A stretch of 64,000 bases of DNA from Antedon bifida (Eukaryota; Echinodermata; Crinoidea; Comatulida; Antedonidae), in NCBI GenBank assembly GCA_963402885.1, contig OY727093.1, forward strand, positions 14,067,501 through 14,131,500, in the 5' to 3' direction. Of the stretch, positions 1-60,263 are shown piece after piece (the stretch's first letter is position 1; each line of letters begins with the position of its first letter). The notes under the pieces are model-generated. The model was not told the DNA's origin. It saw only the letters and a list, made by a program, of their open reading frames with translations, and did not search any database. The position numbers and the translations under genes were made by a program.

Positions 1-63
1 ATTAGAATTCTAAATAAGTTTACAGACGTAAGCGTAATCTAATACTTCCAACAATTTTAGTAC

Positions 64-2520: not shown

Positions 2521-24668
<22,148 letters not shown>

Positions 24669-28171: not shown

Positions 28172-28268
28172 CATATATTAATGCAGCCACTGATGAGATC
28201 CAGCCACTGATACCCACAGCATTGTCATTTTTTCAGTAATTTGCCTTCGGATTCATATATTAATGCAG
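28172..28268 (+). mobile_element. 67-bp Penelope 3' remnant with 15-bp target duplication
   Basis: CATATATTAATGCAG at 28172-28186 is repeated exactly at 28254-28268. The 67 bases between match the 3' tail of the Penelope element at about 6928-6991, with only a few substitutions, including TGAGATCCAGCCACTGATACC and CAGTAATTTGCC. This is an extremely 5'-truncated retrotransposition event. Confidence 0.85.
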
Positions 28269-29149: not shown

Positions 29150-29760
29150 GACTATAGCTATAGTATAGGTAGGGTCTAGAGGCTGTCCTTAAAGCCTAAA
29201 CAAACTATGTTCTAGGAGTATGCCTGAATTATTATTATTATAATATAGACTCCGAGTCCTAAGAGGGCCTACCTTCCTATATGCCTAGACTAGTTTAGAT
29301 CTGTTTAGTAGAAGGTCTAGCTCTAGACTAGTAGAAACAACTATTTATAGTATTAGTTACTGCACTGTCTGAGTGTAGGCATAGTACTACTACTAGTACT
29401 AGCCTAGGCCTCTTAGTAAAAGGCCTAGCTAGTCCAAGGCTTTAGTTAGTGTAGTACAGACAGGCCTAGGCCTACCTAGCCTAGGCATAACCTATCCTAG
29501 TACTAGTAATAAATTTCCACCACTCCATCATCATGCACACCACAAAGGCCTCTAGCTAGGGCCTAGTCTACAGTTAGTAGGCTAGCTAGCTTAGTAGTAG
29601 ACTAGCTAGGCTAGGCCGCTCTAGCCTATTACTAGGCTTTAGCTAGGCCCTAGGCTACATAGCCTAGCTAGATAGAGAGAGGGCTAAAAAGGCCTAGTTA
29701 GTTAGGCCCTAGGCTAGGCTAAAAGGCCTGGCCTAGCTAGTATGTATGGTAGGCTATATA
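29150..29760. repeat. TAGGCCTA/CTAG-rich low-complexity region
   Basis: Dense short palindromes of the types TAGGCCTA, CTAGCTAG, AGGCCTAG and ACTAGT cover about 600 bp. The same octamer occurs singly across the window. No tandem period is fixed. No coding content. Confidence 0.6.
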
Positions 29761-32700: not shown

Positions 32701-33375
32701 TACACAACGACTCTACTTCTTAATGCCACGCTATAGCAGACGGTTACAAAGATATTAATGTTAAAAACTCCCAGATGCCTGATCGATAAATTTGCTAATA
32801 GATCACAAACGGGCTTAAATTGTGAAGCTGTTTTGTAGAATATGTAAGTGTATTCATCATGTAAGCAAGAACACTTTCAAATGTGTCGTTTACATGATAG
32901 ATAGTAGTACTGGAAAATACCACACGCCCGATGCCAAAAAATGTGAGCCACATGACACACCCAATAATGCCATAGAATCAGATTTCTTACTGTACGATAC
33001 ATACGTATATCTTTGGTTAATCCCCTTTACCAGTTGTGAATTCCAGTAGGCCTTTCCATGAGTTTGTGCCATATGTAATTGTTTAATAAATAAATGTGGC
33101 CTGCTTTCTCAATAATTGCTGTTTCCTCAACCGACCGATTCAATGTTCTGCCGTCTTGTGCGCGCAATGCAGCTTATATCCGTCGTAATATTACACAGCC
33201 AGTTTGTTCTTCCCGGTGTCTTCCTATCCACGGTTTTGATCACACATCAAACCAGAATAAATATTGATCTATCTCTTATGATTGCGGCGCAAACTACAGC
33301 ATATCATAATAAATATTTTCTGTGTTATAAAGTAGTATAAATCTCGCTATAATAATAGATAACAAAAAGATGATC
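29761..33375. other. Intergenic DNA between convergent USP47 and Wnt9
   Basis: At 29860-30010 a less AT-rich stretch holds a CACGTG E-box and an inverted CCAAT (TGATTGG), promoter-like in appearance but without a gene attached. The remaining 3 kb shows no exon I can recognise. The Wnt9 3' UTR must extend leftward from 33375 by an unknown length. Confidence 0.4.
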
Positions 33376-36300
33376 TCAAAATGGAGGAACGTATCGTTTA
33401 CATGTATACACTTCAGTTGTGTTATAGCAAACATCACACTCAACTTTACAACACCAAATAAAATTACATCTGCACATTGATTCGACTTCTTCTGTTTTGG
33501 TGTCGTATCCTCTACCGCAGCATAAACTGTCACAATTCTCATCCTTCTGACACCGACGTCCACCAGTACCTGGTGAATGAGCTGTCGGCTTACAGTAGTC
33601 TGGCGATTGATCTCTGTAAACCATTTCTGTTGAAAGTGGTTTACGAGGTGATATTTCTTTTAACAAGAGTCCCGGACGGGCTCCATTTCCGAGTCGAACT
33701 TTTTGTGCGCTTTCATACTTTTGTTGAAGTAATCTGGAAATGTTTTGAAAAGGAGCAAGTTGTTTCCAACATGTTTTAGTTGAGCACGTTGCTGAAATTC
33801 CGTGACATTTACAAGTCTTCTTCATTCCTTTCTTTACAAGCTATGAATGTAAAAATAAAAAAAACGTTTACGGGACTGTATAATACGTATTATTTCCCAT
33901 CTCATTCTGCTATAGCAGATTTGGGTTTCTTTTTATACTTGTTTTCAGAAAATGTAGCCTACACATTATAGATGATTTATCTTTATTCCTTTTATGTTAA
34001 ATTTAATATGTATTAGGACCAAGATACCTAATTTAATCAGTAAATAATGAGGTAATCGGAATACTTTTTTCAAAACTTCCATTATTATATTATATTTTTC
34101 TTCTTATTATTATTTTACACAATTTTACAAAGGTGTACATACATTGTTACAGCACTTGTGAGCTATCGATACATAATATCAAACTTCAAATAAACTTTAC
34201 GCCTACACTTTTTGATTTGTTTGTTCTGAGTTGTAAAGTAGTTCTAATTCCATTGACTGTGTTTGGCAATTATTGCTATGTTTATTTGCTTTGTATTTCT
34301 CACAATGATTCTAACCGAACTTTGATTATAAATTATGGGAGAGAAGAGTTGTAAATTCTTTTCTTCCTGTTAACTTTAAATTCGAATAACTTACAAACAA
34401 AATAAATGTAAACAAAATGTGTAAATAAATTATTTATATAGCACTAATAGTAAACAAAACCTAAAATCAGACAAATAGTTCCATAGAGAAATCAGGTCAC
34501 CTGGAGATTAGGCAAAGAGCCATTTAATCGTACCCAGACAATAATTAACCCTTTGCACTGTATCTGTAGACTAAATTGAACAAGGGCAGTAGCGTAATTT
34601 GCAATTGTTGAAATATATGTATTATTGTATTATTGTACAAGAAATACACGTTGGGTTCAAGTGTACAACCAGTGGTACGAAGAGAAACAAATTTCGCGCA
34701 CGCGTGAAATTAGGCATTTAGTCATTTTGACACACACAATTCAAGTGTTTTGGTGGTGTGGGGAGGAGTGCGATAATAAATGGTTTGTGGGTCTTCCACA
34801 CGCATTCATTGGTAAATGGGAATGTTATCACAACTATGGGAATTGACGCAGTGCGTCTATTAGGCCTACTCTTACAGGAGATTAGCAGCCAAATCCATTT
34901 TCGATTAAAAAAAAAATTGCCGTAAAAAAAAATAAACATAGCCAAATATAGCAAATTAAAATTGTGATATTGCAGATATATAATATCACGAGATATGTTT
35001 ACGTTGAGCCAATCTTTTAACATCGGCTGAGGAGACATGAAAGTACAGTATTGACAAGCTATAGTGACATAGATCGCAACGCAATAAGGAAATTAATAAG
35101 TACAACGACAACCGCAGAGCAAAATGACCTTTATGTTCATATAATTATAAGGCAACCAAACAAACAAACGAAGAGTGGGATTTAAAACTTGAAATGTACG
35201 AATCTGGACGATGACAAAATGTAATACTGTAATTGATTGATAACATTATATTCTTTTAAAGAGGAACCGCCGAGAGAGAAAAGCAGTTAAGCATAGAAGC
35301 CATCATCAAGGATTATTGCTTATGTTTTTATTAGGCACATTTTATCAAGACCCCGATTAGACAATCAATAAGTACCCACTTCTTTTGAAAACGGTCATTA
35401 AATTAACTTTAATTATTAACAAATGGAGATAATTTTAATGCAAAGGTAAATGTTGTAGATGAGATATTCGTCACAGTAATAAAACACCAATAATTGATAA
35501 TAATCACACTTACCAGTACTCCTAAATCACTGTTATGTCTATCTAGTTTTTCTGTCGCATCGTTTCTATTATTTTTCAAAAATTCCCGTACAAATTTTTG
35601 ACTATATTTCATATTGTCTCCACAGCCTCCCCATCTCCAGGTTTCCCGATTTTTATCAACATCAAACGTGGTTTCATCGCATGAACACCGCAGTAGATGA
35701 TTTCGGCTACATGCCCTAGCTATGGCATGGGATAGGCCTGCAGATGACACTGCATATAGGAATGATCCTTCTTTAAACCCTGTAAAGAAATAGGAAGATA
35801 CAATAGTTGTGAGATACAGCACTACCTTTAAAGACATGCAGCATCAGTATGTACTCAAGAATATTCTTGATATTTCATAACTGTAGTAAAAGCTTTAATA
35901 CAGTATTGAATTTTCCTTAAAGGAAATTATACGTGTTTTTTAGTAATTGAATAATGCAGAATTAATGACTTATCACATGAGTTTCAATAAGAATATACAC
36001 ATAGTACATAGTAGGCTTAAATAGACCCATCCAAGATTAATAACTGTTTAAATAACATGCTGAGTAATAATTGTGTTAATAAATTTAATATATGAGATAC
36101 ATAAGATATAAACAATTTCTATAAAAATTTCATTTCGATGAATTAATATTCTAATATTTTTTACTATTAAAAATACCGGTAGTTATTAATTTTTAATAAA
36201 TGCAAAGTAGGCTAAATTTAAATAAATTAGCGATAAAAGGATTAACATTATTATTTTAATATTACAAAAAAAAAAAAATAGGACAAATAATATATTATCC

Positions 36301-39300
36301 GAGGTCATTCTATAAATAATATTGTTTGCAGAGTGGCAGTGCGTAAAATAGGCTACTTGATTTATATTTTTATAATTTATTTTCTAATAAATACAATATA
36401 ATACACTAATATTATTATCACACAAAAATATATATTTAAAAACCACATTCACGTATGGTATAACAAATGTGTTTCCATGTAATGAGATATTGATAGTTTT
36501 AGGACATAACGTAAACTATATTAATTAAGGTTAAAGGACACGCCAACGGGTGGAAATCAGACTGGTAAAAAGTCCATGGAGAAGTCTCGACTGAAATACG
36601 CGGAGCAACTAACGTTGTTGGCTAAAATTATATACAGTATAAGTTTCGTTAGGAAACGAGTAATTAGTGTCAAGCAATAGCTAGAGCCGTCCGTCTTGTG
36701 TGTGACATAGCCTATCAAGTGAATGATCATTTTACATGAAATTGAGGGATTTAGAACATCGATGTTGATCGGTAATATCAGGGAAGAGTGAACCCCTGGT
36801 AATATGTCTGTCTCAAAAATCCATGACTCTACTATTTGAATTAGAAGATTAACGATTACGTGATATGATGGGTGCCTGAAATATGTATCACGCCCATAAT
36901 TTGAGATATTTGGCTAGCATTAAGATCCTCAAAACGTGCAACAAGACGCGTTTAATCACCAATGTACAATTCGGATACCGGGGATGTGGTAAAATATTAT
37001 AAGTGTTAGCACTACTTTATATGCCAAAAATGAAAATCCCGGACCACATTTATACCAATGGTAATGTGGTAATTCAATTTTCTGTGTATTGTTTAATATA
37101 TTCGAAAAAAAACAAAGCATTTTAAACTGCTGGTCAGCTGAAACATATGTTTCTGTTGTCGTTGGCCATACACTTTGAATTACACATGCTAATTCAGTAG
37201 TTCCTTGGTAAGGCAGTTCCCACCAGCCGGCTTAAATTATTTAACTTATTATGGTAAGGATCTCAAACGATAAGCTTAACACTTGCAATATAGACTTCAC
37301 ACTTTGTAATAACATATTTAAATTCGCACCAACTTGATAATTCAAGAAATCTCGCTGTTTTTATTCGTTAGAGGCTCTATACTGTGGTGTTATCTATATA
37401 ATGTATACATTCTAGTCCAATCACGATGGAGTAACTAAATATAGGCTAATAATTAGTACTGTCATTCTTAAGAATAACAGTGTTACACGAACTAATAGTG
37501 GAACCATTTAATGAATACTGTATTCTAGTCCTAACGTTGTGCAAAGAAAAAAAATCTGCTAAACCTCTTGTACACGTTGTTCAGCCGCCATGATAGCAGT
37601 GTAAAAAACAATTAAGGCAAAGTAAAGGAGACCCAGCTTTCGGACTTTCGTTTTACAGTTTAAAGTGTCAAAGTAAATATCATCTCAATTAATTTGTATA
37701 CAGAAGACAGGCGACTATGACATCTAGTTTTATCAAAACATAAATCGTGTTCTTCATTAAAAACTTATCTCCTTAATTAATATTTCCTTAATCGGTTAGT
37801 CTTATTAGCTAGTACAGTAGTTATATTCTTATTCTTTAAAATGATATACTGATATACTGTTCCTTGAGCAACAAATGCATTATAAAAGAGACACCGTTGT
37901 GTTAGACTTATTAAGAATTTTAACCGATACACCTCTAGCATTAACTCATCCTCGCCTACTTCGACTCCCCATTTTGCTCCTCCTTCTCTCCAACTCATTC
38001 GTATAGCGTATATCCTCGCCTAACTCTTTTTGCAACTCTACATCTCAAACTCCTGGGTGCCTACACTCGCCTACTTCTCCCTTTTAAATCCCTCTCAAAC
38101 TTCATTCATAGCGTGTTGATGTTCACCTTATCAAACCTTGGTCAATTATCATTCCTAGACAAAGTCAATTTTAATAACGTAACTAAATCAATAGTTAACC
38201 AAATGTTTCAACACTCAACAAAAGTTTTGTAAGTGCATGGCACTAGGCATATTTGTCGTTATGGTACCCACAGCCAGACTGAAACGGAACTGCAAACAAT
38301 AGTACTGACAGATATAAAACACTGCCTATAACGAAATAGTTAACAATTACACGAGGAGACAAATTGGCCAGATGTGTGCAAAACAACTCATGTATAAGAA
38401 TGTTCATTTGGGAGAATGGGGAAATCTGACAAATAAGTAATATTTGTATGACGTCACAGTTTAGTTAATAATTATACGAGACACATTTACAACAAATATT
38501 TTGCTTTGGAGTATTTTGTTTTTAACGTGGGATCATCAACAGGTATTTATAGCGAACACCCAGTTAGATATTATGTACACATACAACTGTTATTGTTTTC
38601 ACCAGGAGGGAATATGTACATGAATTGACTTTGATGTATGATATTTCCTAAGATTTTACGACACCCTGTAATTGTTTTTAGTTGCTGTTCAATGATTAGA
38701 TCAATCGAGTGCTCATAAGACATTTGATGAAAGCTATACTTTGCACACATTAAAGTTATGGACTATAACGAGAAAGTGAATTTGGAAATTTCAATCAACA
38801 GCGTAGGATTATACTAACTATATAGAGAACCATCTAAAGCTTGAAAAATGAAGTGGTCTATAATCCAAAGGCATTCTGTTTTGTTTTATGCTGGCCTTTC
38901 TTGTGTAAATTCATTTGATATTACAGGTAGGCCTACTATGTGCCCTGAAAAAAGGTTTTCCCAATACACTCAGTATATTCTTGTGAATCTGAAAGTTATA
39001 CGGAAAAGGCATTTAATATGCAAACAAAAATTAATATTCTCTTATTTTACAACTATAGACTATACGCATGAATAATGATAATTTTTTTTACGTTGACGGA
39101 CTAAAGGAGCACTTTCGACCAATAAGATTAGTCCGGTTGAAATGGACAGTGAACATGAGTCGTAAGTTTCTGTAAAATGTTTGCCAATACTACAATATAA
39201 TGATGGTCTGTGGTTTATAGCCTCGTAGAAAATCCTTTGTAAAGGGTAGTTAAAAACTGAGTAAAACACTCATAGCAAATCAAAAGTGGATCATCCTGTT

Positions 39301-42300: not shown

Positions 42301-45300
42301 CTTACCGTATACTTTATAAAGGGAAATGAGGCCCTTAAATAGTGATACAAAACAGAAGCACAAAGAATACAAGTAACGATTGAATGAAACGTTAAAAAAG
42401 GATGTCACGTCTACCGGTGAAAATAAACATGCATATATAAAAAAAACATGTTATCGTCATTTTTACAGCTAATATCCAGGCTGTATTAAGATCCACCAGG
42501 TGTATAATTGTTGAAATACACATATATTTTAGTATTTAGTTGAATGAGAGTGTCGCTCCATCTGGAATTCTAAATAGCATTATAGGCATAATTGTTTTGT
42601 TTTGAAGTTCAATATAAATATTGTTTGTCGATGAAAGTAATAAATCTATAACTATATTCATTAAATAACTCCCGAATTTAAGAAGTGGAATGTCTAACAT
42701 GAAACTCCTACTATGAAACATTTATTTTACAGTATAATATATCAATATTTGTATTTCAATCGTTCAATGCTAACATCTGCTTTCGTTTATCAATCTTTCC
42801 TGTGTTTGGTTTATTTTCATAACGACTTTTACCTTTGAAACAACTTACATCAGATTCGTTTATATGTTACATGACATGATGATATAATATGTTGTATTGT
42901 CATTTTGTATTGGTTCAGCTACTAGACTCTATGATCGTTCTGTCTTAATTCAAATCAAACACCCGACACAAAAAAAAAAGAAAAAAAGTATAGGCCTACA
43001 AAGGAGAAAACCATAATTAGGCCAAATAAATAAATAATAAATAAATAAAAAATAAAATTGTCACGTAATTTCATTTTTTATGAACCACAAAACGCTCAAC
43101 GATTACGCAATTTGGAAAAGCGAATTATTCTTTCAATTTTTAATGAATACGACAATTTTAGATAAAATAGGCCTATAGCAAATAAAAAAGTCATGCGGCT
43201 CCAACAAATGGAAACTTTAGATTTAAATAAAATAATATTTACTTACTATTTTTCAGCAAATTTTTCTTATAGGATGAGTTACTAAGATCACAATTCCAGC
43301 GTTCATTATGGAACTCATATAAGCAAGATCTATTGCTAATATCGATAGCCTCCTTCAAGACGTCGATCATACCTTCGTCTCGCCGACACATACTTCGTTG
43401 TTTGCCGTTAAGTCCAAGGAATTTACAATTGTTTTTGTCCAAACTTATTCGTCTGTTAGATAAAATCCTAGAATAAAGAAAGGGTTTAAAAAAATAGAAA
43501 TTTGGGATTGTATTTTTCCTAGCATTAAAAACATTAATATTAATAATTAGCGATTGGTCTGTTTAACAACGGAGTAAAATGTAACATTGCTCAATATGCA
43601 ATCGTACGTAAAAGGATAACGGATCAACCCACCCGCTCCTAAATTCAAGAATCATAATTTCATGCATGGTACTTACAGACCCTATATACAAAAAGTGTAT
43701 ATTTTACTAAAGTGTATGTATAAAGAGTATGGGAGATTATGCCTATTAGTAAAAAAAATAATATTTTGGCACACATGGCGTTTCGTATGTATAATAATAC
43801 TTAGCTCGAAATTCATTTCCAGACAAAAATTGAAACGTTGACTGGTGGACTAACAAAAAAGACAATCAATGCAGACTGGGGAAAGAGTCTAGTGTACAGT
43901 ATTTTGAATAAAGCTTACACAAAGTTTGGACCAAGTCACGTGTCTAAAACCGTATACAGAATAGGCGTAGGCCTAAGTACCGGTAAGTAAAGTAAAACAG
44001 AGCGTGCACATATTAAACCACAAGGCACAATCTGTGTGATCTGTAGGCCTATATTGCACTTACTAAAAACTAAATATAAAAGCTTACGTATACACATAAA
44101 ATAAATCACTATAATAACAATATCAGATTGTATAACTTGTTTATCGAATTATGTCGGCAACACTTAGATGTTTAGTAATGTTTTCATAACAGACAGAGAA
44201 GTTGACCTAGCAATATGATCATATCGCTAATGTTATGACTATAAAACGCAACAAGTTTTCGTAAACAATGAAATGGGAAAGACATTTTGATGTATATTGT
44301 GAAATAAGTGAGTTGAAATGATGGCGTAATCTTCCTGACACATAAGAAACGCAGTATACAGAACACAATAAGGACTAGTTCACACCAAGTAACATTTGCG
44401 TCAATGGTTGCTATTTATAAATGCGTGGACATTTCTTGTGTGAACTATCCCGTTAACTTGTATTAAGCTGATACATAATGTAGGCCAGTGAACCACATTG
44501 GTTGCTTTTAAACTCAGTCCTGATTCGGATATCTTCAGACGTATCACGTCCTTCCAGACAGCACAGAAAGAACGTGTGCACAGCCATACAATTCTCTCAT
44601 GTACGATAATCAGTTAACCTTAATTTTCATATAATGTGTTGAAATAAGAACAATCCTTATTCTTAATTATACAGTTTCCTTTGAGATATTATACCATAAT
44701 CAGTTTAGACCTGGGAGAAACAGTGTTATTTAATAGTATGACTTGGTAAAGAAAAACAATCAATTAATAAGTATAATGGACAATGACAATGTTTGGATAG
44801 TGTTAAATCTTGTATCATGCTTCTAAAACAAAAATGTCGAAAAACGCAAATTATGAGGAAAATGAGGGAAACACGTCTTACAAGACTATGATTTGAACCA
44901 CATATCAATTAAGCATGCTAATAGTTTCACTATTTTGTTAATAGTGTATTAAACACAGTCAATCATGAATATTCTTTTTGGTCATATAACGTTTCTTAAT
45001 TCCATTATCTGTAATAGTTTATTCAAGATAGGACGCTATTAAGATTGATACAATCTAGATTAGCCCAAATACATCTCGTCAACACGAACTGGAGCTGCAC
45101 ACCCGTTAGGTTCAGAAAACTTTGTTACATTTTGACGTGAAAAGAATTACTATTTAATAAGTACAGTGTTCCATATTCTGAAGTCTACCTGATGGATACA
45201 CAATACACTTTTCAAGATAACATGCATCTCGACACTCGTAAAGGGTGAATAGCCTAAATTTTATAAATAATGTACTGCGCGATTCCTTTGAAGTTTGAAG

Positions 45301-47716
45301 ATGATTTTAGATAGGCATAATCTAGGCCACAGAGTTGACAAAAAGTAGGCCTCTTTATTGAATTTGTTCATGGTGGGGTGGAACCATAAACGCGGTATAG
45401 GCTACAAGACAAATGTGCAGAATTCTCACACAGTAGTCAGATAATACAATGTACTGTACTATAATTATGTGAAACTTGCCATACACTATTTAATAATAAA
45501 ACAACTGATGAGAGGAATCTAAAAGTTCTCAATAGAAGATGGTCACCTCAAGTTACGCACAAAGCGTCAAAAATAAAAGTTGGACTGGAATTGCTGTGAA
45601 AACTATTTCAGACGAAAAGGAGTTAAAAACCAACCAGTTAAGGTGTTCTTTTAATGAGTATCTACCGTTGTTTTCATATTTTGTTATAGAAAGGGAATCC
45701 CCTCAAAAATAAGTTTAGTAAAGATCAAGTCAGATTTGGTTCATAATATGAGATAAAACAGAGGTATTTGACAGATACAAGTCAACTGAAACCAAACCAT
45801 TCATCAATCAAAAAAAGCCACCGACAAATCATCTGTCAGTCAGGTTATCAGTAAACCACTCATTCAATCAATCAACCAACGAATCAAATCTACTGATCGA
45901 CGATTCTCCTAATTATTCCACGGAAGGACCGATAAAATATACTAAACAATCGATTAATTTATTCAAAATTCTTAGAAATTATTAATTCTATAACCAAACT
46001 TAAATATAGGTATGACATTTCAGCTTCCTGATAAATGTCAGCAATTCAAATACACTGATGGACACTATAGTCAACAGGTTGAATCAAATGCTTGTTATAA
46101 ACATACGGCATTGATATCCTTTTCAGAAATAGGGTAAAAATACAATGCTACTGGTCTCTATTATAAGTTCCGTGTATTTTGTCTTCTCTGTTATTACCGC
46201 ACATTAAACGGAGAACTTAAGAATAACAGATATGTATGCTCAAGAGGCCTGATTTGATACACAACCGATGATAGTCGTATATATCGTTATTGTTATTAAG
46301 AATAATCTACATTTCATAAATGTCCATGGCCCTTTAACATGGTATTCAAATGTATCATTTCAGAAAAATTAGATAAATAAACATTGACAGTTTGTAAAAC
46401 TAATTTCCGGTTTCTTTTCCAACTACCTAACAAAGTTATAAAAATTATTCATAGCCACTGTAGCATCGCTTATGAATTCAAGGCTAAAACATAGAACTAT
46501 GATTTCTAAAATAAATGATCAATTATACTAGAATATCAAATTCGTCTGTCCATCTGTAACACGTTATATATTATCAGTATTTAGCGAGTTGGAAAAAGGG
46601 GGATTGGTACTGGGGTTACGGGACAGGAATGATTGAACTTTTTCTTGGATTCATTTTTTTCATTGAATGCTAATTTCTTTAACAGTGAGAAATATTTCAC
46701 AATACTACTAGTGTTTAAATCAATTTTCTATCGAGACAATTCTAATATAACTACTGTAATATAAAACTTGAAAAAAGAAACGCAAAAAAGTTACTAAAAT
46801 ATTTGTAGCCGTTAATCATGAAAATTCTCTCTGTCACAAAATTTCTAAACCTAAACTGGCCTATTTAAAATACCTTCCAACCACTTAAATAGTTTGACGT
46901 TGATACGTTGCAGGGTGGCTTCTGATGATACTATCACAAGACAACATCAGATGTATAGTGTCGGCATTCATTCGTTCAAAAGGCACCCAACCGACACTTA
47001 TTATCACCACAAAAATAACATCGTTTGAAATTAATTTAACTTGAATTATTTTGACAACTAATACTATAATGCTGCTGTTTTAGCTGAATTATTTTTTAAA
47101 GACTTGTTTAAAGTTCATTCTACAAATAGTTTGGAGTCTGTATCAATCCGTAAATATTGGCATTTAAATATAAACATCTTGTAGTTGTGTCCTATTATAT
47201 TAATATGATAATTCATATATCGAGCTGTCCTAGTATTCACATTTCAACATTTAGGTTGTGTTTACGAATGTTTTAAGCACGCGGAACATGTAACACACAC
47301 TTTATTCTATGCTAAGGTAAACACCCGTATAATTCTACAATTCACCCAGCTAAATGAATATCAATACTTCTATTTATTGACTTAGGCCTAAAGTGAAACA
47401 TATAGGGAAATCTTTGATATTATGTAATTGAAAGACGTATACATTATGCTAGTACATATCGTATTTTAAATAATTATGCCTACAAAATAATACAAGTACA
47501 TTTATATCGAAAGAGTGCTCATACACATGATATATGTTTGTATTTTAGTAGGCCTATAACATTTTCAGCTGAATGTTTATGTATACCTACTTTTCTCACT
47601 CGCTAAAAAAAACACCTAAAAGTCGACAAAAACAATACATACCCAAAGTAGGTTGAGCAACTGGGCAGTAAACTAAGGCCAAAAAGAAGCACCATGAATA
47701 GGTACCCAAACTTCAT
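33376..47716 (-). CDS. WNT9: Wnt9 secreted signalling protein, complete, 4 coding exons
   Basis: Secreted lipid-modified ligand for Frizzled receptors. Exons in transcript order: 47643-47716, 43247-43467, 35514-35779, 33376-33840; sum 1026 nt = 341 residues plus TGA. Junctions TTTGG|gtatgt, ttctag|GATTT, AATA|gtaagt, tttacag|GGTTT, GTACTG|gtaagt and catag|CTTGT keep phase. Exon 1 encodes a signal peptide (MKFGYLFMVLLFGLSLLPSCS). Wnt9 identity rests on GLNGKQRSMCRRDEG, FHNERWNCDL, GFKEGSFLYAVSSAGLSHA, ETWRWGGCGDNMKYSQKFV and TCWKQLAPF, closer to human WNT9A/9B than to other Wnts. The C-terminal domain has the usual twelve cysteines ending VYTCK. The acylation loop reads CHGISATC, with Ser203 retained but the usual Gly-Ser after it replaced by Ala-Thr. 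N-glycosylation sequons: NRS, NSS, NIS, NTT. Single copy here, 6.2 kb downstream of GOSR2 on the same strand. Confidence 0.95.
35780..43246. other. Wnt9 intron 2, 7.5 kb
   Basis: Long AT-rich intron with no recognisable exon, RNA gene or transposon coding frame on either strand. Long introns in developmental ligand genes often hold enhancers, but no specific site can be supported by eye. Wnt9 intron 3 (33841-35513) is likewise empty. Confidence 0.5.
43468..47642. other. Wnt9 intron 1, 4.2 kb
   Basis: AT-rich, separates the signal-peptide exon from the mature protein. No recognisable exon, RNA gene or mobile-element coding frame. Scattered single TAGGCCTA-type octamers only. Confidence 0.5.
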
Positions 47717-49447
47717 GTTGTCGTATTAAACACTTTATGAGAAACATCCTACTTGCAGACCAATAATAGATCCAGGGCGAACCTTTAGAAACTGACGCCC
47801 GCACTAAACTGAGCACTTATTCTACTGTTTCCTGACTAAGGCAAAAAGTCGCTTAAGTTCACAAAGAATCAATCATTCATTTCAGGCGCGTTTGTGCTTT
47901 GGGTTGCAAAGTCATGATTGGTTGGTTCTTGTCGAAGGCGGGCAGTAGAGACTGCAGACGATCATGATCGGTTTACGTAATGTTAAGTTACAGCATATTA
48001 CATTGGATTTGTAAGACAAAATTCCAATATTGACATATATCGCACCTTTGGCCTGATAGGTGTATGGAGTTTATTCTAGTTGTCGGAACTACGGACTTAC
48101 TGATGACTGGAGGAATAGAAGAAAAAGACATTGTGTGTATAATTGGGTATCATAAAGTATATAGACTATTTGACTATATCCATATAATTTGACGTGTGCC
48201 AACACACAACAGGGTGATTTATTGTCAAATAGAACTGTCTTCTTTGATCTCCCGCTTGTAAACAAATATGATACTTTATTCTTGGTTGTTTATGTAAATT
48301 GTAAGAACTAATATTATCATTGAAAATATTTACCGTAAATAAGTACCGTAGTTTTTATTTAATTTGAGAAAATATAGCGCAGTGATAAATTGAGAACGAT
48401 AATCATGATTGCTAATTTATAATAGTTATCATTATCGCCAAATGAATTCATAATTTTGGTATGTAAAATCTTTGGGATGCATCATGATTGTTTAGAGCCG
48501 TTTGTACATGGAACGTATTCAAAAGAAATTCGAATAATTGTTATTAATACCATTCTAGCCGTTTTAGCATTGATAGGCCTATACTATTAATAATAATATA
48601 ATTACTATAATTGTTTTTCTGTTATTATTGTTACTTATCATTTATATATCGTACAGTATTATCGATATTATTCTCAAACATACAATTTGTCGTGTTCATA
48701 TAAACTATACCCTAATATAGATCACCTTTAAAAGTAAAACTGATTATAGCACGCCACCTATACAGCAGGAATATTTCAATCACAATATCGTTCGACATTT
48801 TTTTGGGGTCAATAATTGACATTAATCAATATTTTATAGGCCTACTGGTTTCTGTTACCAATAGTAATTATCTTATCTACATAACTGTAGGCCTATATTC
48901 GTTTTTACAATACAATAATAGTACAATGGCTATGAGAGCCATTGCCAAGAAAAACCAACTCTTTGATTTTGATAGAAGCCCACGAAGACCAGTATAGTGT
49001 CCCACGTATAAAATCACACGTATTGGTATACTATTCAACTCTTTCCGAAACCACTCTCATACTCATTTACAACCTGGCCGCCCTCCACAAGCTAAAAACA
49101 GAAAAAACGACTGTTCGAAGTGTGAGAAAATAACAATTAATTATGGAAAAATGTGATTTCAACACATTTGTCGTCAACGGATTAATTCATAACCACTTGG
49201 CCTAAAGACTTATCCTTTAAGGGTATAAAGACAGGCAGACGTCATAAATTCCATAGAATTTAAGAACAATACTTTGCTAAGAAAGACATATGGAAATATG
49301 AAAATGAGATTATAGGAGCCTAAATGAATTAATTAATCTGCTGCCATACGATGTCCACTCCTAAACATTTATATAACTTTTCTAATGCTCGGTTCTCAAA
49401 ACTCGTGTGCCCTAAACTCAAATCGCTAGACTACGCATAGTTTTTTC

Positions 49448-49503
49448 ATTCATTCATTCAATCTTTTTATTTCGGAATCTCTGGTCCATAGAAAGTACGA
49501 TTA
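49448..49503 (-). repeat. Retrotransposon 3'-tail repeat, copy 1
   Basis: On the minus strand this reads TATGGACCAGAGATTCCGAA followed by ATAAAAAGATTGAATGAATG, a conserved tail plus a short tandem end. The same core is found in the opposite orientation at 58190-58245. The pattern is that of a non-LTR retrotransposon 3' end; the family is not identified. Confidence 0.55.
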
Positions 49504-52500
49504 CATATACATTTGTTAGTGCATTATTATACACTTAGCTGTTTTTTCCTTCATGCCGTCTATACTTATGGGGTGAGATCACCGTCATGCACATGGGATA
49601 GGCCTACATTCCCTCCAGACATTTATAACCCGTCGCCGGGTATAGATGTATACTATATACTAGACGATTAAATATTTCAGATGCTTATTTCATTAATGAT
49701 GCAGTGAAAGTGAAAACTGTTGACTATAGGGCCATGTTTAAATACATCGTGGCCAATAACCTTTGGCATAATGAATCAGCTCTATCAAATTAGTAAGCCT
49801 CCCATACAAATACTCTTGCACTTTTAGCCGTTTTTACTTTTCTTTAGACTCATTAAATGACTTTTTAGCCCAAGGAAAATGTACGGAAAGTCACAATAAT
49901 GTATATTAGGCCTAAAACTAAAAGATCAACAACTCGGAAAGAAAGAAATTTGGCGGTGGTCATAATTTGGTGTAGGCCTATTTCTTTAAACGCTTACGGA
50001 GAACGAAGTTAGAAGCCACAAAATGTGTCCTCTGGTGGGTCTATATATTTATAATTTGACATTATCATGCCCCGAGCGAAGTTTGTGGTTGAAAATAAAG
50101 TTGTTATTGTTTCTACATATGACTTACTTTAAAGTCTTGGAATACGTTAACCTTTTCAAATAGGCTGTAAAATTATTACATTTTCCTATACACATAGGGA
50201 CAATTAGATATATGAATACGACATTATATTAAAAGACCACACATTAAGATAACATCCGTTTCAAATACACCGTTACAAATCATTAATATGATTTTAAGGA
50301 CTTGTTGATTTTTGTGGTCAAGTAAACTCAAATTGTTAGAAACGCATTGTGTCTGAATCGTTTTTATAAATGTCACTTCACTCAAAATACCCGGGTATTC
50401 GATATACAATTTGTTTTATAATCAATTGCTGTAATTTTACACAATAAAATGTATTTATTATTCATTCTGTATCAATATATGTCTATGCACAATCACTTTT
50501 AATTTGGGTGCACTAAAGAGCATTGTAATTTGGTTGGAGGTTGGGGTAAGTTCCTTGCACGTGTAACATGCGTTCAAATCATGAACCAGGAGACTATGGC
50601 ACATTACCTCATTAAGTCATCTTTTTGACGCTTGCCATTATATTTGGGTCTAGCTAGGCCTTATACAGTACAGTTTTAATTTGATTTTAAAATGTTTGTC
50701 TCGCGGACGGTCGGTTAGTGACATTTAACTATTGGCAGTTAATTCTTGGCCATGTACCAATATGGAAATAATACACTTTTACTTGTAAATGAGAAACGTG
50801 GAAATATTTAATTGTGCACAATATTGTTAGCTCTTTCGTGGGGGCAGTATCAGTTCAGTATCTTTGTCGTATTACGTATACGGTTATAAAAATGTATTTA
50901 CCATCTACAATTTCGTAAATGTTTGCGTATTTTGAAAAAAACGTTGTATCAACATTGACTTTAAAAGTACATGAAACAATACGCAAGTATGTAATGTTGT
51001 TTTATCAATTATAATATAAATCATGGCGAACGATAACAGACTTTATCGACATTCTTATCGCGGTCATCATTAATATGTAGATAAACGTATGTTTAAACAT
51101 GTCATTTAATAATTAACAGACGACTGACGAAAAGAAAGTTGTAGTGACGTTAAATGTGTGATTAGCGTTTTATATAGTTACATGATTTCGAACGATGTCA
51201 AACATGTTAATATTTTCCCGTTTCAATCTCCGTTCTTTCACATTCGATTAAGGTCTACATTTTCGAAACAATGTCTGTTTGGCGATTTAGCCTGTTTAAG
51301 TCGTTGAATAAGCGATGAGAGATGATCGTCACATGGTCCTCTAGCTGAAAGTGGTTTGGCATCGAACTTTTTACGTGTGTAATTGTTATTTCCGTATGGC
51401 CTTGGTTCATATTGCATATTAGTAATAGACCTGGGAAATTACATTTTCATGCACGGTATAAAGAATACCTATGCTTGACGGGAGGACAAAATTACATCTG
51501 GCATATGGCACTCATAGTAATAGGTTAAGGGCGTAAAATTATGATACACATTTTACAAGGTTTTTCTTATTAATAACATATTTTGGCAAAATTACAATTT
51601 GTTATCTATTAAGCGCATCGCGGATATTGTACAGGATTATTATTTTTATAATAAAAATAGCATATTAAAACCCTGTGCTACTCTTCAAACAAGCATTTCC
51701 GGATATTATTTGTTTCAATATACAGTAATCGAAACCTACCGGTGTTTTAAAAAAAACTTGCCGCTAGCTATGATACTACGGAAACATCAGCAAGAAACAT
51801 TACGAGACACAGCGACAGAAAATAAAGCTATATACGTCTAAATTCAAAGCCAATTTCCGTTTTACTGGTTTTAGTTTATTTTTTCCAAAAGTAATTTTAA
51901 CTTTTTAGTTAGCTGTTGGTTCGTAGATGATTTCTTTTACACAGTAATTCAATCATTATAAATAGTGTATACATTTGTAGGTCAGTGGCAGACCTACAAA
52001 TATAAAACTTTTAGGTTTCCCCCAAGTCTAGTTATGTCTAGTTCATGCTGTATGTAATCTAGTAATTCCTTTTGAATTTCGATTTTTTTTTCTTTTCTGA
52101 AATCCAACTCAGGTATACGCATGGCACGCAAGTGTGTGTGCCAACATGATTTATATTTACTAATAAGCCGAATCGCCGAATTAAGGTGGTTGTTCTAAAA
52201 ATGCATTGTCATGTAGATAATACAACACAGTTTAAAATACGATTCAAAACACTTTAATTATATAAATTTTAATATTCATAATTGTACTACACATTCACAG
52301 TAACGCTGGCATTAATAAATAAACTATTGAAAATATATATTATAGTGTTTATAGAGTATTACGTAATTTTAACAATTCTTTCGCGTTGTTTGATGAAGAT
52401 CAACTGAGTTAATATAGTAAATTTTAAGCACTAGAGAAACACAAAATACGGTGGAATAATAAGCGAAAAGTTAAAACAAAAATATCAAAGTAAATTTTAA

Positions 52501-53401
52501 AACGTTAAAAGTAATTACTAGTAATATTTTAAAAAATAAAACGAATATATTTATCTGATGGGTAGCGTACAATGAATTACTTTTATTAGTTGTATAATAG
52601 TACTAGTGCATGTTTCATTTGCTATGTCATTTAATACTTCAAACAGCAGAATTTCAATTCATCTTTAAAAGATACAGAATAGTAGTTTTATCCACGGGTT
52701 AGATTCCTGGCACGAAAAGCAATTTATTTATATCATTGTTTTCGTTATTTTCTTTTTTTCTTTTACAATGAACCTACTGGGATAATCCTCTTTTTACTTA
52801 AAATAAGTGTATATGGGACATTATTATGTTTTAAAGTGTAAACTTATTACGTGGTTTTGCCTACAATGGCACCTTTAAAAAATAGTTTTAAAAGTGTAAA
52901 CGTCTGAAAGTTTTTAAAATGTTACACAAAATTGGAGTTATCACATTTATGCATGTATCATCATGTTTCCTTTCATTTAAAATATGCCAATTTCATCCAC
53001 TTTTATTTTAGTTCTGATGTTTTTTTTTTATTTTTTAAATATCACTTCAAGGCAATTGCGTTGATTCATCCTTCAAACAGAAAAGTACATTTTAATAAGA
53101 TATTAATGAAGCATAAATTTCTTCCCGAACAGAAAAATACATTTAAGTAAAGCATGCAAGAATAAACAGCTACAGTAACAAGTTTAACATTAAGTTAGAA
53201 GCTATAAGATGACATAAATCAGATGTGTAACTACAATAAATTGACTGTTAATTTACATTAATCTTTTATATATTGTGTAATACTAAAAAATATATGGAAT
53301 GATTTAAAAATTATACAATCAGTGAAGATACCATAGACCATAAAATGGCCCAACGTTCAAATTCAATCTTGTTACCAGAATGTGATGTGTCGATAAGAAT
53401 C

Positions 53402-53426
53402 ATATATATATATATATATATATATT
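53402..53426. repeat. (TA)n microsatellite
   Basis: About twelve uninterrupted TA units, 3' of GOSR2. Confidence 0.9.
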
Positions 53427-53934
53427 TATTTATGTTGTTTAATTTGTTTATCTAATTGCTTTAAACAGACAAGATGCGCACATATTTATCTTTTTACGAC
53501 CAATCCCAAGACAACATTACAACCAATCAAGTATGCCCAAATTTCCCACGCAAAAATTAAATCAAAGGCCATAAATGATAAGATACCTTCATTGACAATA
53601 AAGAAATTATGTTGGCAACCTCAACTAGTTTCTTGAAGCATCCAATCATAAATAAGAATTGGCCACGAAATTCCAGAAAGCACAACTATAGCTGATGACT
53701 TACTTCATGCAAGGGCGGCATTTAAATACGGAATAGGGGAAGGATAGAGGAACAACATTGCAATAATGAAAAAAACACATTCCCATAAAAATAAGTCAAA
53801 TTTTAAGGAGTAATTAAAATGTTACAGCACCATCCTTTATCCATTTAAACTTGTCTTTTCTTCTTCCCATTGTTTCCTACCCACACAGTGCATTACCATT
53901 CCCTTTGTAATCCTCTGCTGATTGGCTTACCATG

Positions 53935-56900
53935 CTATGCATAGTATCTATATATTAATACCATTATGATACAAGTTACTATCATGCCACCAAATAAGAT
54001 AAATTTGTCTTGCACAGAACGCTTTTCTATCAGTCTCATTACAGTGTTGCTTAGCCCTAATGTGTTTGCAAGGTCCAACATTTTCTTCTTTGTGCCCTGA
54101 AAAACAATGCAATCAATTCAATTGTTCAGTTTATATCTTAATGTAATTTAATAATTGTGTGGGATCTCCAACATACATAGCTACTCTTTGTATGGGTTTT
54201 CTGTTGTTAATTTGTGCAGCTACTGTCACTATGATTGTTGCTACTCTCTAAACTTATGACAAAAAAATGTGATATACTCATATATGGACATGATGATGCC
54301 ATATCAATACCATATGTAGGCATATCACTACCATATTTGGGCACAGCACACCGTTTTTGTCAAACTAGTTTGATAGTGTAGACAGAGCTACTATACTTAG
54401 GGTATTCTGGTGGCATTGTGTGGACATTCTGTATACTAATGATACACTCCATAGGCAATTGATATTTAGTTGTTAATGCTGGCATAAAGTTAAAAACAAC
54501 TGGATTTAGAGTAAAAACAAATTGTATCTGTTTTTAAACTGTCATTTCAACAGAGGGTTTAAAAGCCTTTAGGCCACAAAGTTTGGAGAACAGTGCATGG
54601 TAGTACTGTATGTATGTATGTTCGAAGGAATGAATGAACACAATTTTAAAATCCAAATATATCAAGTTAACTCTATGTATCATTGTGCTTTTTGTATGAA
54701 TAAAGATATTGATATAATCAACCTAAACCTCTAATCAACTTAGCTCCTGAATAAACTGAACCTAGCTAGCTCTCTAAAACATCTTCCACTCATGGAGGTA
54801 TAAATGTTATACCTCCATGTTCCACTCAACAAAAATTACATTTTTAATGGCGGCCATAAACACCGAAAACTGAAAAAAACACACCTGATTTTACGGCACC
54901 AATTCAGTATCAATTTCAGTACCAATTAATATGAATTATATCAATTAATTTCATGTTTGCAAAGTCAAGGTCACTTTTTAATTAATTCAAAAAATTACAT
55001 TCCACAAAAATCTTGAAAAGTCATTTTTAAATAATTCACATTTTGTACGCCAATCAAAATGCAAAGAATGATACAATCATCGCTAATGAATTTATGACAC
55101 AAAGCCTAGTTTGTAAAGCCTTCGACATACGATATCTTTGGGTGTTAAGCCGGGAAAACAGTATTGGTATCTTTGTCAACATTCTTCAAAGACAAGGCTT
55201 GTATCCATGTCAACTATACCTATTATGAACAGTTTTTAATTGCGTTTCTTGACAGTGTCACCACTGTACATGAACCATGATACACTTTTCCTTCGTGACA
55301 ATTATTAGTTGGGTATATGCGCTGTAATTTGAAGTTTCCACACAACAACTACCGCATTGTTTGGCCAACATGAATTTGAGCAGCTACAAAGTTGATATTT
55401 AATCAACGAAACTTTCAGTTGTAGCTCTGGGATTAAATCGATATCAAAATATGACAGTTTATTGAGAAAACACAAAACAAGTTGTGTGTAACATTGTAAC
55501 TAATCTGTTACTTTAAAAGCAGTATTTAAAGCAAGATCTAATTCAAAACAAACTCAATAATTTAATGACCATGCATGATAGAACTGCCAATAAAGTGTTC
55601 ATTTCATGCTACAAATTATTTACTACACAATTTTAGTGATTAATATTAATGTATGTAATAATCAAGGGCATTTACATAATGATCAAATATTCTATCCTAC
55701 AAAATCAAGACAACTATTATATTACTATTAAATAATTTTGATTTTATATCTTATAAACACCCACATTTCCTAGTCTACTGTACTGTACTTTATAGCCGTT
55801 TTAACAAGAAAATCCACAGTTTTCATCATCATTATTATAAGAATATTGACATCTGTCATATACCCTCACATAATCTATAGCAACTAGACGTCTTACTGTA
55901 CAACACAAAGAATTAAGTGCTAATCTCTTGGAAGTTCTAGTTTTTTAGGTCCTGTAGATGTAAGATTAGAATTGTTAATACTTCAGACACAGAAATAGAT
56001 TAAACTAAGAAACCCACACACAAAAAGAATTGTATGTAAGAAGGAGTGGCAATATTATATGATATATTGTCAATATTTGGCTGAATGCCATTCAGTAAAA
56101 TTTCAAATATAACATGTTTCCAGTTTCAGTTGTAATGAAGGAACAAGGACCATCCTGTTAAAATAGAGACACATTAAATGTTTTTATACCTAACACCTAA
56201 ATAAATTCCTTGGCCTTGTTGAAATACTGTATAACCTGTCAGCATTCACCTCATGGCATTATTTGTACCATTCCACTCATAAACATTCATTATTTGCATT
56301 GAGAGTTTGCTTATAACTATTATTATTATTATTTGTATATTATTGAATAGAAAAGAGTATTACATATCAGAGGAATTAGTTTAGAAACAAATACCTCCAT
56401 GCTTATAAATGTTTGCAAAATAAAACATTCGTTAAAAGAGGACTAAACAATTTCAGAAAAAAAATACAATTATTGTAATACACAGCATGGTAGGTACTGA
56501 GTATTTTCATAAATGAGAAAATTGCAGTATGACAAACAAAATCATGATAAGAGGTAATATTTACATACTTCAAAAAGAATTTTGAAATTCTTGAAATAAT
56601 CGCATAACTAAAGCGTTAAGCTTCAGAATCCATGTTAATGCAAGAGGAATTACGGACAACAAATCATAAACAAGAGAAAAAGATGAGTCAATGTATAGAC
56701 TTTATATCCGCCTCTTCTAGTAGATGGTAGGCGGTTACTCTCTAAAGAACTGATTTCTGATATTACTATCATAGCCACATTATTTTAACTAATGTTTATA
56801 CCATTACAACTTTCAACGTTGGCTAAGTCTAGTTAATTACTAATTTTGCTTCTGAATAGTAGAAAAGCATAGATACTGAGTAAGAAACATATTTTTTAAG

Positions 56901-59900
56901 AAAATGGCATAAAAACTTGGCTTGGCATAGAAAAAAGGGTGCCAGTTGATTTTCTACAACACAAAACATGTGACCATGTGGAGTGGAGAGAGAACAGTTA
57001 GCCTCTATGAAAGTGAACAAGAAATGATAGAAATAATTTAAACACTACAGTAGTTCTCCTTGATAAATTTGTCAACAACCCAACTCTCCTTTATCATCTA
57101 TCAACAATCACCATCAGAAATGTAGAAAAGCATGTAAGCATTAATTTCAAGGACTGATTTAATTACTGAATTAAAATGAACAATTATCACAGTGATCAAT
57201 TCAATTAGAACATAGAGCCAAATGTCTATGCAATGAGTTGTTAACATTAAGCTAATTGTGTCACAGCATTCGGTGTTTCTCATTAAAGGACAGTGCAATA
57301 TTTATACACATTGTTAGTTAAACACGCAATATAAACCACAGCTTACAATAGGTGTAATGAAACGCGATGATAGGAACACAGTGTGATGAGTAACATGGAA
57401 TTACAATCAAGTATTATTTAAGAGAACTTTTATTTTTCAATTCAATGTTAATGTCTTTAAATTGACAGAAAAGCAGAATGTTTTGGATAAAAAGTAAAGA
57501 CTAAGTATGGTTCTTACGTATGTATTATAAAATAATGCCTGGGTTTGTTTCCATTTTTCTTACTTTATTGGTCTAAATTTTGATTAATCTCTATAATTGT
57601 TGTATTAAGCTTTGTACACTATCAAACTAGTTTGACAAAAAAAGTGTGATGTGCTCAAGTATGGTAGTAGTATGACCAAATATGGTAGTGATGACATCAT
57701 CATGTCCATATATGGGCACATCGCATTTTTTTTGTCACATAGTGACAATATAGTTTGATAGTGTAGACAGAGCTTTAGAATATCATTGTCACAGTAAATA
57801 TCTTTTTATATTCATGATGTAGAATTTTCTATTCTTTCTTTTATTTAGCTTAAAACCTTTAAGCTTAATTTATTTAGACAAATTGAACTGGAAGAACAAA
57901 AAAAGAAAGATGACACTGACCTTTAATATATTCCGCTGTGATCGGAGGTTAGCCATTGATTCAGCTCCTTGACCAATCAGATCACTTACACCATTAATAG
58001 AACTCCGTAAAGATGAATGAAATTGTAAGTCATGGTCTATATCAATAGCTGCACTATCCTAAATAATAATATTATTAAACAAAGATAAATTAATAAATTA
58101 ACACAAATTAATGAAAAAAATATATTTTAATGATTATAATTAGTTAGTACAGTATATTTTTGTGTTAATTTATACGTAATTTTACATTCTATGGACCAGA
58201 GATTCCGAAATAAAAGATAAAAGATGAATAAAAATGAATAAACAAATACACAACTAGTATAAAAATTGATTTAGAAAACAGTAGTCTTTGGAGAGTTGAA
58301 TATAACTGTACTACAGAAATTGAAAAAAGTTAATAGAGGATAGAGGGCGACAATCTAGAAATAGCTTACATGAGTAAACATGATAAAGTGTGATTTTATT
58401 AATACATTACTGTATATCAAAAGTAGGTAAAACTTACATTAGTTGTGTAACTGCGATTTAGCAATTCTTCTCTATCTTGTGCTTCTTGTTGTGCTCTTTC
58501 ACGACGTTGTTGGAGCAACTGTAGCGCTGTATGTAGATGCGATAAATCATACTTCAGCTTGTCTACTTGTCTACAAGTTAAAAACGACAAATATTCTGTT
58601 TAATATGTTTAAATTGGATTTTAATATAATATATTATAAATTTAATATTACAAAATATATCTTTTTTCAAATTTTTAACACAATTTAAAATTTTTTATAT
58701 AATTTTATTGTTAGATGTTTTTATGAAAATGTAATGTTAATTTACATTTTTGCATGTTGTCTTCTTGATGGAGGTTCCTTGTTAACTAGAATATCTAGGC
58801 GTTCGCAGTTACTTGTGATGCGTTCAAGACGATCCCGCACATCATTTTCTAAAGCTAAGAGATAAGAAAAGTATATATCATTGTTGGTAAAGCATCGGTA
58901 AAAGTAGAAAGATTAATACAATGATAATAATATTTGGTAGAAATATGGATACGGATAGTTATATGTATTTATAAATTCAATATTTGGTTGAATGTATAGA
59001 ATGGTACGTACTGTGATAATTCTCATTCGAGGCCTTCTCTAACCTGCCAAGACTATTCTGTACATCATGAATTATTCTGTAAGAAATGTGTTAAATATCA
59101 TTATATACACGATTGTAATGATACTTACTAATTATTATACTACGTCTACTACTAGCACTAGCCTATTGATAAATTCAATAAAATAGATGATAAAACATTT
59201 TTAAAATTCGAAATAATAGGCCTAGTAGGTGGCCCTCCTTTACTCTAGGGAAATAAAACAATGCACATTGTTATGCGCAATTTGAATGATTTGTAAGATT
59301 TTAAATTGAATTAAAATACTCAATTCAAATTGCGCAGAATTTTTTAAAATGCGCAAAGAGTATTTCAGTATTACTATTAAACCACAGCTCGACATAAACC
59401 TTATAATAAAATGTTTGTTATAAATATCAAAATAAAACTCTTTATCTAGGCATAGGCCTATATTTTTATAAGAGAGAATATAATAAATAAACAATTCTTG
59501 TTGTGCAATTTCAAATTGCGCAAGAAAATCCTTGCGCAAATTTCGCTTAACACAAACAATACAACAATAATATAATATTAATAAATAGAATACATAGTAT
59601 TTATCGGATATAGGCCTAAAGTACAGACGAATTCCGAAATACTAACTAGGCCTACTATCTAGGTCTAGACCAAGACTATACTATAGGCCTAAAGTACTAC
59701 ATGTACTGAGAGAGGACCGGCCGGCCTACTTCTACTACTATCTAGCTAGGAGGAAAGGACCAGCTAGATAGAGGGCCTAGCTAGCTAGATGAGAGGGGAG
59801 AGGTGATCAGTAGGCCTAAAACAGAACGATTTCACCTTAAATATTATACACCATGATAATGCCTGGAATAGCATAAGTTATACATATTTCATTGATTGAA

Positions 59901-59956
59901 TTTCTATCAAATTCATATTAAATTTACCTGTTTGTTTGGTGATACAAGTTGTCCAT
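53935..59956 (-). CDS. GOSR2: Golgi SNAP receptor complex member 2 (membrin), complete, 6 exons
   Basis: Qb-SNARE for ER-to-Golgi and intra-Golgi membrane fusion, anchored in cis-Golgi membranes. Exons in transcript order: 59928-59956, 59012-59076, 58746-58854, 58438-58570, 57921-58058, 53935-54096; sum 636 nt = 211 residues plus TAG (human 212). All junctions are GT-AG with matching phase. It starts MDNLYHQTN (human MDPLFQQTH). Residues about 10-110 form the N-terminal helical domain, with [19 protein letters not shown] and [16 protein letters not shown] closely matching human. The SNARE motif runs from about residue 130 and carries the zero-layer Gln in NLRSQRN, then [20 protein letters not shown]. 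The last 21 or so residues, [21 protein letters not shown], are the membrane anchor. It is divergent from TSFM across a 307-bp gap. Intron 5 is 3.8 kb and hosts two MITE family A copies. Confidence 0.97.
54240..54389. mobile_element. Short TIR element (MITE family A) in GOSR2 intron 5, copy 1
   Basis: The right end TTTGATAGTGTAGACAGAGCT is intact and the body contains ATATGGACATGATGATGCC and CATATTTGGGCACA. The left TIR is degraded (CTACTCTCTAAACTTATG). Confidence 0.7.
54791..54819. repeat. Perfect hairpin CATGGAGGTATAA / TTATACCTCCATG
   Basis: A 13-bp perfect stem with a three-base ATG loop, in GOSR2 intron 5. Shares its CATGGAGG arm with the hairpin at 27378-27405. Confidence 0.65.
57608..57775. 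mobile_element. Short TIR element (MITE family A) in GOSR2 intron 5, copy 2
   Basis: It begins AGCTTTGTACACTATCAAAC and ends GATAGTGTAGACAGAGCTT, flanked by TA on both sides (57606-57607 and 57776-57777). The body repeats the TATGGTAGTGATGACATCATC type of sequence. Confidence 0.8.
58190..58245 (+). repeat. Retrotransposon 3'-tail repeat, copy 2
   Basis: TATGGACCAGAGATTCCGAA followed by ATAAAAGATAAAAGATGAAT in GOSR2 intron 4 matches 49448-49503 in inverse orientation. The simple-sequence end differs between copies, as expected for retrotransposon tails. Confidence 0.55.
59077..59927. other. GOSR2 intron 1 with TTGCGCAA-type repeats and hairpins
   Basis: TGCGCAA occurs repeatedly between 59270 and 59545. 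It includes an inverted pair GCGCAATTTGAAT (59274 on) with ATTCAAATTGCGC (ending about 59334), and a perfect hairpin TTGCGCAAG-AAAATC-CTTGCGCAA at 59516-59539. The stretch 59630-59820 is TAGGCCTA/CTAGCTAG-rich, like 29150-29760. TGCGCA resembles an NRF1 half-site; that reading is speculative. Confidence 0.5.
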
Positions 59957-60263
59957 ATTTTATAATTTTTTCATTCCACATCATCAGAGCGAGAGCAGCT
60001 TTACTCTGTACCAAGAGATAATACGAGTTATCCAAAACATAACAATGCGTTTCAAACGCGTTTACGTGCAATATTACCAAATAACGTGATATGTTCTTTG
60101 GTTCACTCTCTTTTATTGTATCGGTAATAAAACGCGTTTATTAGGTATTCAAACGACGTCGTGTGAGAAAAAAATCAAGAATCGAACGTGTTTTGAGTGT
60201 GGTGGTGGGGAAAACCGCCGCTCTTTTATGCAGTGTTGGTTGGCCTAAATCTAACGAAAAAAC
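59957..60263. promoter_or_regulatory. Shared GOSR2/TSFM divergent promoter region
   Basis: The 307 bp between the start codons of two housekeeping genes. It holds the palindrome AAACGCGTTT twice (60054-60063 and 60130-60139) and CGACGTCG at 60154-60161, a CRE-like palindrome. CpG is visibly more frequent than in the flanking introns. No TATA box is evident. Confidence 0.5.

Follow-up and report, generated by a model that had tools for sequence, protein, structure and literature searches.

Does the side-by-side position of a Wnt gene and a SNARE gene in an echinoderm and in human go back to their common ancestor, and, if so, what has held the two genes together? The question is raised by a stretch of 64,000 nucleotides (C1:14067501-14131500 of an assembly of 315.6 Mb in 27 contigs; hereafter the window) in which the genes for Wnt9 and GOSR2 are neighbours. 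Wnt9 is a secreted Wnt ligand and GOSR2 a Qb-SNARE of the traffic between endoplasmic reticulum and Golgi. We infer that adjacency or near-adjacency of the two genes is ancestral and inherited, with a probability of about 0.6, and that the pairing most likely stems from an old common chromosome neighbourhood rather than from any proven joint control. Among the papers listed by searches for GOSR2 in an open-licence library, none dealt with a Wnt9-GOSR2 pair in an invertebrate.

Gene models and orthology

Both genes are complete on the minus strand. In the direction of transcription GOSR2 comes first and Wnt9 follows 6.2 kb further on. A preliminary description of the window, made by inspection of the letters and open reading frames (ORFs), had placed the two genes next to each other on one strand with no gene between them; the spliced models agree, and the gene coordinates given there were right within a base or two. 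The features of the pair are as follows.

59928-59956, minus strand: GOSR2 exon 1, start codon at 59956, frame joining exons 2-6
59012-59076, minus strand: GOSR2 exon 2, with AG/GT borders
58746-58854, minus strand: GOSR2 exon 3, from the spliced gene model
58438-58570, minus strand: GOSR2 exon 4, from the spliced gene model
57921-58058, minus strand: GOSR2 exon 5, first half of the SNARE region (V-SNARE_C, 2.8e-6 for its own open frame alone)
54097-57920, minus strand: GOSR2 intron 5, with short dispersed repeats near 54257-54398 and near 57600-57780
53935-54096, minus strand: GOSR2 exon 6, second half of the SNARE region, membrane anchor and stop (V-SNARE_C, 6.3e-6 for its own open frame alone)
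47717-53934, no strand: intergenic DNA between the GOSR2 3' end and the Wnt9 5' end, no gene found, local repeat cover 1.2%
47643-47716, minus strand: Wnt9 exon 1, hydrophobic start (signal peptide by eye) followed by STYFG, donor GTATGT
43247-43467, minus strand: Wnt9 exon 2, Wnt profile match and gene model
35514-35779, minus strand: Wnt9 exon 3, Wnt profile match and gene model
33376-33840, minus strand: Wnt9 exon 4, the last, Wnt profile match and gene model

None of the 25 stop-to-stop ORFs of at least 50 amino acids that overlap the intergenic interval matched a Pfam family at 0.01, a kind of search that a fast-evolving or non-coding gene lacking known relatives may escape. The window as a whole contains no tRNA gene and no Rfam match at gathering score.

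The GOSR2 gene (59956-53935) consists of six exons, all five introns have GT-AG borders, and the encoded protein of 211 amino acids is free of internal stops. It matches V-SNARE_C of Pfam at E=4.5e-16 over residues 123-184, and the SNARE motif is followed by a C-terminal hydrophobic tail, as judged by eye. Identity to a human GOSR2 reference sequence amounts to 51% over 210 aligned positions. Four V-SNARE_C matches with E up to 0.1 are present in the genome, two of them being exons of the GOSR2 gene in the window and the other two lying elsewhere (C14, C7); a second copy of GOSR2 was not found among them.

The Wnt9 gene (47716-33376) has four exons, three introns that all carry GT-AG borders, and a product of 341 amino acids that covers positions 4-305 of the 305 in the Pfam wnt profile (E=7e-92). 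Assignment to the subfamily relies on a maximum-likelihood tree of 24 last-exon sequences, of which 12 represent the Wnt loci of this genome (our own grouping of 39 exon matches) and 12 are human references, WNT3, WNT5A and WNT7A among them; Wnt8 and WntA are not represented among the references. In this tree the Wnt of the window clusters with human WNT9A/B, with support values of 92.5 in the Shimodaira-Hasegawa-like approximate likelihood ratio test (SH-aLRT) and 79 in the ultrafast bootstrap (UFBoot). Over its full length the protein shares 43% identity (156/359) with WNT9A, including the YFG start and a KYS.KFV.EFL stretch.

A rival reading is that the Wnt belongs to another subfamily, or that the SNARE is something other than GOSR2. 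Some of the figures lean that way. In the last exon the best identity of the window gene, to WNT9A (45.7%), is closely followed by that to WNT7A (45.3%), the branch support is moderate, and WNT9B shares slightly more of its residues with a Wnt2-like gene on C16 (45.7%) than with the Wnt of the window (44.9%); the GOSR2 protein had no match among solved structures with E up to 0.1. Yet the tree places the window gene with WNT9A/B, the best match of WNT9A among the Wnts of this genome is again the window gene (45.7%), and both the full-length alignment with WNT9A and the identity of GOSR2 to its human counterpart, together with the lack of a second copy among the V-SNARE_C matches, argue for the assignments as given. 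We regard an error in orthology as highly improbable.

Another Wnt locus, at C11:1966646-1970107, resembles Wnt11 or WntA by eye and groups weakly with WNT10B in the tree. It would be of note if it were Wnt11, given that a survey in sea cucumber found no Wnt11 (PMC9957329).

Lineage of the host

The preliminary description had tied its argument to the condition that the DNA comes from an invertebrate deuterostome. This is indeed indicated by the mitochondrial code together with the presence of a Wnt3-like gene. In COX1 on the mitochondrial contig (C27), AAA occupies four of four sites at which other animals have asparagine; two of the four AGA/AGG sites were compared and fit serine, and the ATA sites compared fit isoleucine, which points to the echinoderm code. 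Flatworms also use this code. Wnt3, on the other hand, is described as missing from protostomes (PMC6060547), and the combination of an echinoderm-type code with a Wnt3-like gene therefore identifies an invertebrate deuterostome. A cnidarian or protostome host is rejected on the same two grounds.

The Wnt3-like gene (C1:25458871-25462350 and C1:25462914) yielded three Wnt matches; the frame given for each is open over 887 codons, and the gene therefore looks intronless and long. On the mitochondrial contig COX1 is followed by COX2, with ND1 and ND2 upstream on the opposite strand (genes identified by eye), an arrangement that may be informative about the class of echinoderm.

Probable common origin of the pair

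Wnt9 lies beside GOSR2 on the same strand here just as it does in the human WNT3-WNT9B-GOSR2-RPRML block at 17q21.32, where WNT9B and GOSR2 are both on the plus strand. Three neighbouring pairs could be assigned in the window, and only Wnt9-GOSR2 is known to correspond to a human pair. The order WNT9B, GOSR2, RPRML on human chromosome 17 is given in Table 1 of PMC7744760, the intervals of which overlap and appear padded; it bears out the human adjacency asserted in the preliminary description, and the pair is adjacent in two distant phyla. Linkage of WNT3 and WNT9B has been termed classical (PMC12897036).

The contig that carries the window adds to this picture. C1 comprises 33.2 Mb, that is 10.5% of the assembly, and holds Wnt1, Wnt6 and a probable Wnt10 in a cluster of 32 kb (3.76-3.79 Mb); the pair formed by Wnt9 and GOSR2 follows at 14.1 Mb, Wnt3 at 25.46 Mb. 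The label Wnt10 was given for the position in the cluster, the best identities of this gene being to other subfamilies. Ten of the eleven homeobox matches in the genome with E up to 1e-15 fall into 0.31 Mb of C1 (7331620-7643751); they are Antp-like, all on the plus strand, and form a compact, Hox-like cluster, the eleventh match residing on C10. Hox belongs to bilaterian linkage group B2 (PMC11175523), and in amphioxus a Wnt9-Wnt1-Wnt6 cluster and a Wnt3-Wnt10 cluster are linked on one scaffold of B. floridae (PMC6060547). Together these observations are consistent with an ancient chromosome on which all of these genes were located, and the long-lasting linkage proposed earlier gains support from the fact that Wnt1, Wnt3, Wnt6, the probable Wnt10 and the Hox-like genes share a contig with the pair. 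As in the Wnt9-Wnt1-Wnt6-Wnt10 cluster described for bilaterians (PMC3003278, PMC6060547), Wnt1, Wnt6 and probably Wnt10 lie within 32 kb of each other; Wnt9, in contrast, stands outside this cluster, 10.3 Mb from Wnt1.

Several findings weigh against a common ancestral adjacency. The two genes stand in the opposite tandem order, GOSR2 preceding Wnt9 here, a difference from human that had been recognized at the outset. Wnt3, part of the human block, lies at a distance of 11.4 Mb, and the pair is flanked by genes for a ubiquitin-specific protease and for elongation factor Ts (EF-Ts), neither of which is known to adjoin WNT9B in human. Housekeeping families of human 17q21 point both ways: CDK5RAP3, at C1:14.88 Mb and 0.75 Mb from GOSR2, speaks for a shared chromosome, but PNPO maps to C9 instead of C1, as does the PEHE family (KANSL1/MSL1) with 36.2 bits, barely over the cut-off of 34, and secernin was not found in the genome. 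MRPL55, located near WNT9A at human 1q42, is on C11. An ANAPC3 match that we read as CDC27 lies on C1 at 19.04 Mb, 4.9 Mb away, and would again favour a shared chromosome; it is weak evidence, since the profile also matches in 12 of 14 prokaryote controls and, less strongly, a second time in this genome, on C10. Altogether two of the five additional 17q21 families are on C1, for which the chance probability is 0.09 (0.06 for two of four when the family that was not found is left out). The case for a shared chromosome accordingly rests more on Wnt and Hox genes than on the housekeeping genes of 17q21. CDC27, GOSR2 and WNT9B are named together at 17q21.32 in PMC10918883.

The order found here can be converted into the human order by a minimum of two single-gene inversions (computed) or by one transposition. 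A rearrangement is implied, as the preliminary description stated, but the single inversion that it considered is too few. Under the reading that we favour, two functionally independent genes would have been close neighbours on a chromosome of the deuterostome ancestor that also carried Hox and Wnt1/3/6/9/10. Wnt9 and GOSR2 would then have stayed side by side in the lines leading to echinoderms and human while small rearrangements of the kind just mentioned swapped their order, and rearrangement would also have moved Wnt9 away from Wnt1.

Alternatively, both lineages may have kept the same ancestral chromosome and shuffled its order, the pair forming separately in each of them. The swapped order and the different outer neighbours are what such a history would leave behind, and the 10.3 Mb that separate Wnt9 from Wnt1 on one contig indicate that local order is fluid, which likewise favours independent adjacency. 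On the other side stands the low probability of a chance encounter: a named pair is expected to be adjacent with a probability of about 0.0007-0.001 if its genes share a contig and of about 0.0001 if they may lie anywhere, figures that assume 20,000-27,000 genes (2,100-2,800 on the contig) and ignore the number of pairs that could have been noticed. Independent formation of the pair appears rather unlikely to us, and common ancestry of the adjacency is retained as the better explanation.

Repeat landscape and the possibility of shared regulation

An inherited pair could also be held together by selection. Long-range enhancers of Wnt9 may lie in or beyond GOSR2, in which case selection would act against rearrangements that part the two genes; this explanation overlaps with that of an ancestral adjacency. 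The preliminary description had pointed to GOSR2 introns and the intergenic DNA as places where such elements could reside, and the distribution of repeats bears on this. Repeats were identified with a local sample of 334 kb of the 315-Mb genome, and a region of 264 kb was examined. Wnt9 and the gap together (33841-53934) have a repeat cover of 0.4%, compared with a mean of 27% for windows of the same length in the 264 kb; among windows that do not overlap it, the minimum is 2.9%. The 3' side of Wnt9 (19500-33375) is at 1.4%, while the two flanks reach 34% and 32% and three control stretches of 10 kb on other contigs 30%, 15% and 12%. The longest stretch devoid of matches to the local sample surrounds Wnt9, the next one measuring 9.7 kb:

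28258-49439, no strand: 21.2 kb around Wnt9 free of local-sample matches

Within this stretch a genome-wide search detected one dispersed element, about 150 bp long and situated at 43732-43898, and the 40 matches listed contain no other; 39 of 1,230 first-look candidates were scored and very common words were skipped, so that more elements are possible. The same search in a single control (window positions 1-20000, containing a high-copy retroelement) gave 13,751 first-look candidates, of which 39 were scored as well. Since an element was found genome-wide in a seemingly clean stretch and the sample is small, the local test underestimates repeats, and the Wnt9 domain is poor in repeats rather than free of them.

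A distribution of this kind would suit a regulated domain with Wnt9 at its centre. Hox clusters are likewise poor in transposons, in nine bilaterian species (PMC11175523). Variants of human 17q21.32, the region of GOSR2, go with expression of WNT9B and WNT3 (PMC10918883), although the associations in atrial tissue, expression quantitative trait loci for both genes, were not significant after correction for multiple tests in the same paper. A precedent has been described in the Wnt7-Atxn10 block (PMC8851819). Against control through GOSR2 speaks that the repeat-poor stretch (about 20-54 kb) comprises Wnt9 together with the DNA on its 3' side and not GOSR2, for which repeat cover is 7.1% in the whole gene and 9.2% in intron 5. 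The repeat pattern gives no support for enhancers within GOSR2 intron 5. Tiles of 5 kb with few repeats are, moreover, not rare here: 15 of 52 have a cover of 4% or less, although six of the seven in 20001-55000 belong to these and the seventh rounds to 4%. The swapped order is a further difficulty, because the common gap adjoins the 5' end of Wnt9 here but the 3' end of WNT9B in human, so that by position the two intergenic stretches are not equivalent. Selection against separation of Wnt9 from enhancers in or beyond GOSR2 is hence considered possible as a contributing cause, but on the unlikely side.

A bolder version would be that Wnt9-GOSR2 constitutes an undescribed regulatory block common to deuterostomes, in which the control landscape of Wnt9 also covers GOSR2 and would have held the pair together from a time before the split of echinoderms and vertebrates, flips being tolerated and separation not. 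The Wnt7-Atxn10 and Wnt5-Fbxl14 pairs (PMC8851819) are similar in that a Wnt gene is kept beside an unrelated gene in distant animals. They are conserved across many genomes, however, whereas Wnt9-GOSR2 is known here from two species, and for Wnt7-Atxn10 a regulatory role has been hypothesised. A block of this kind is put forward as a doubtful proposal; an old neighbourhood of two independent genes remains our preferred explanation.

The distinction is of consequence beyond echinoderms. Aortic valve area, great-vessel anomalies and blood pressure have been associated with human variants at GOSR2 (PMC10918883, PMC7744760). Were the pair ancient and kept together by regulation, such variants could act through WNT9B; the echinoderm locus would then offer a small, clean place to seek shared control elements, and the pair would add to the few ancient linkages described between a Wnt gene and a bystander. 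Should the pair be a coincidence, it would caution against inferring regulation from adjacency in two species.

Flanking genes and minor observations

The outer neighbours of the pair are partial gene models within the window:

7134-9080, plus strand: ubiquitin-specific protease, partial gene, left neighbour, with UCH-domain ORFs at 7134-7394 and 8847-9080
61979-63138, plus strand: elongation factor Ts, partial gene, right neighbour (EF_TS, 3.4e-9 and 8.3e-6)

The protease gene, presumably USP47, is convergent with Wnt9, and further exons are likely up to about 17.3 kb. The EF-Ts gene, which we take to be mitochondrial TSFM, is divergent from GOSR2; about 2 kb separate the GOSR2 start codon from the first EF-Ts frame confirmed by Pfam (59956-61979), and a common promoter region is possible. 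A PDE-like exon suspected by eye in the left flank was dropped, as it had no support from Pfam. To the left of the protease exons lies a retroelement on the plus strand (5220-7000), with an RVT_1 fragment at 2.6e-4, below the Pfam cut-off, and dozens of long copies in the genome of about 87-95% identity. Two helix-loop-helix frames are present about 91-98 kb to the left of the window, L013:8612-9091 and L013:2407-3054 (-), the former with a resemblance by eye to the achaete-scute-like family.

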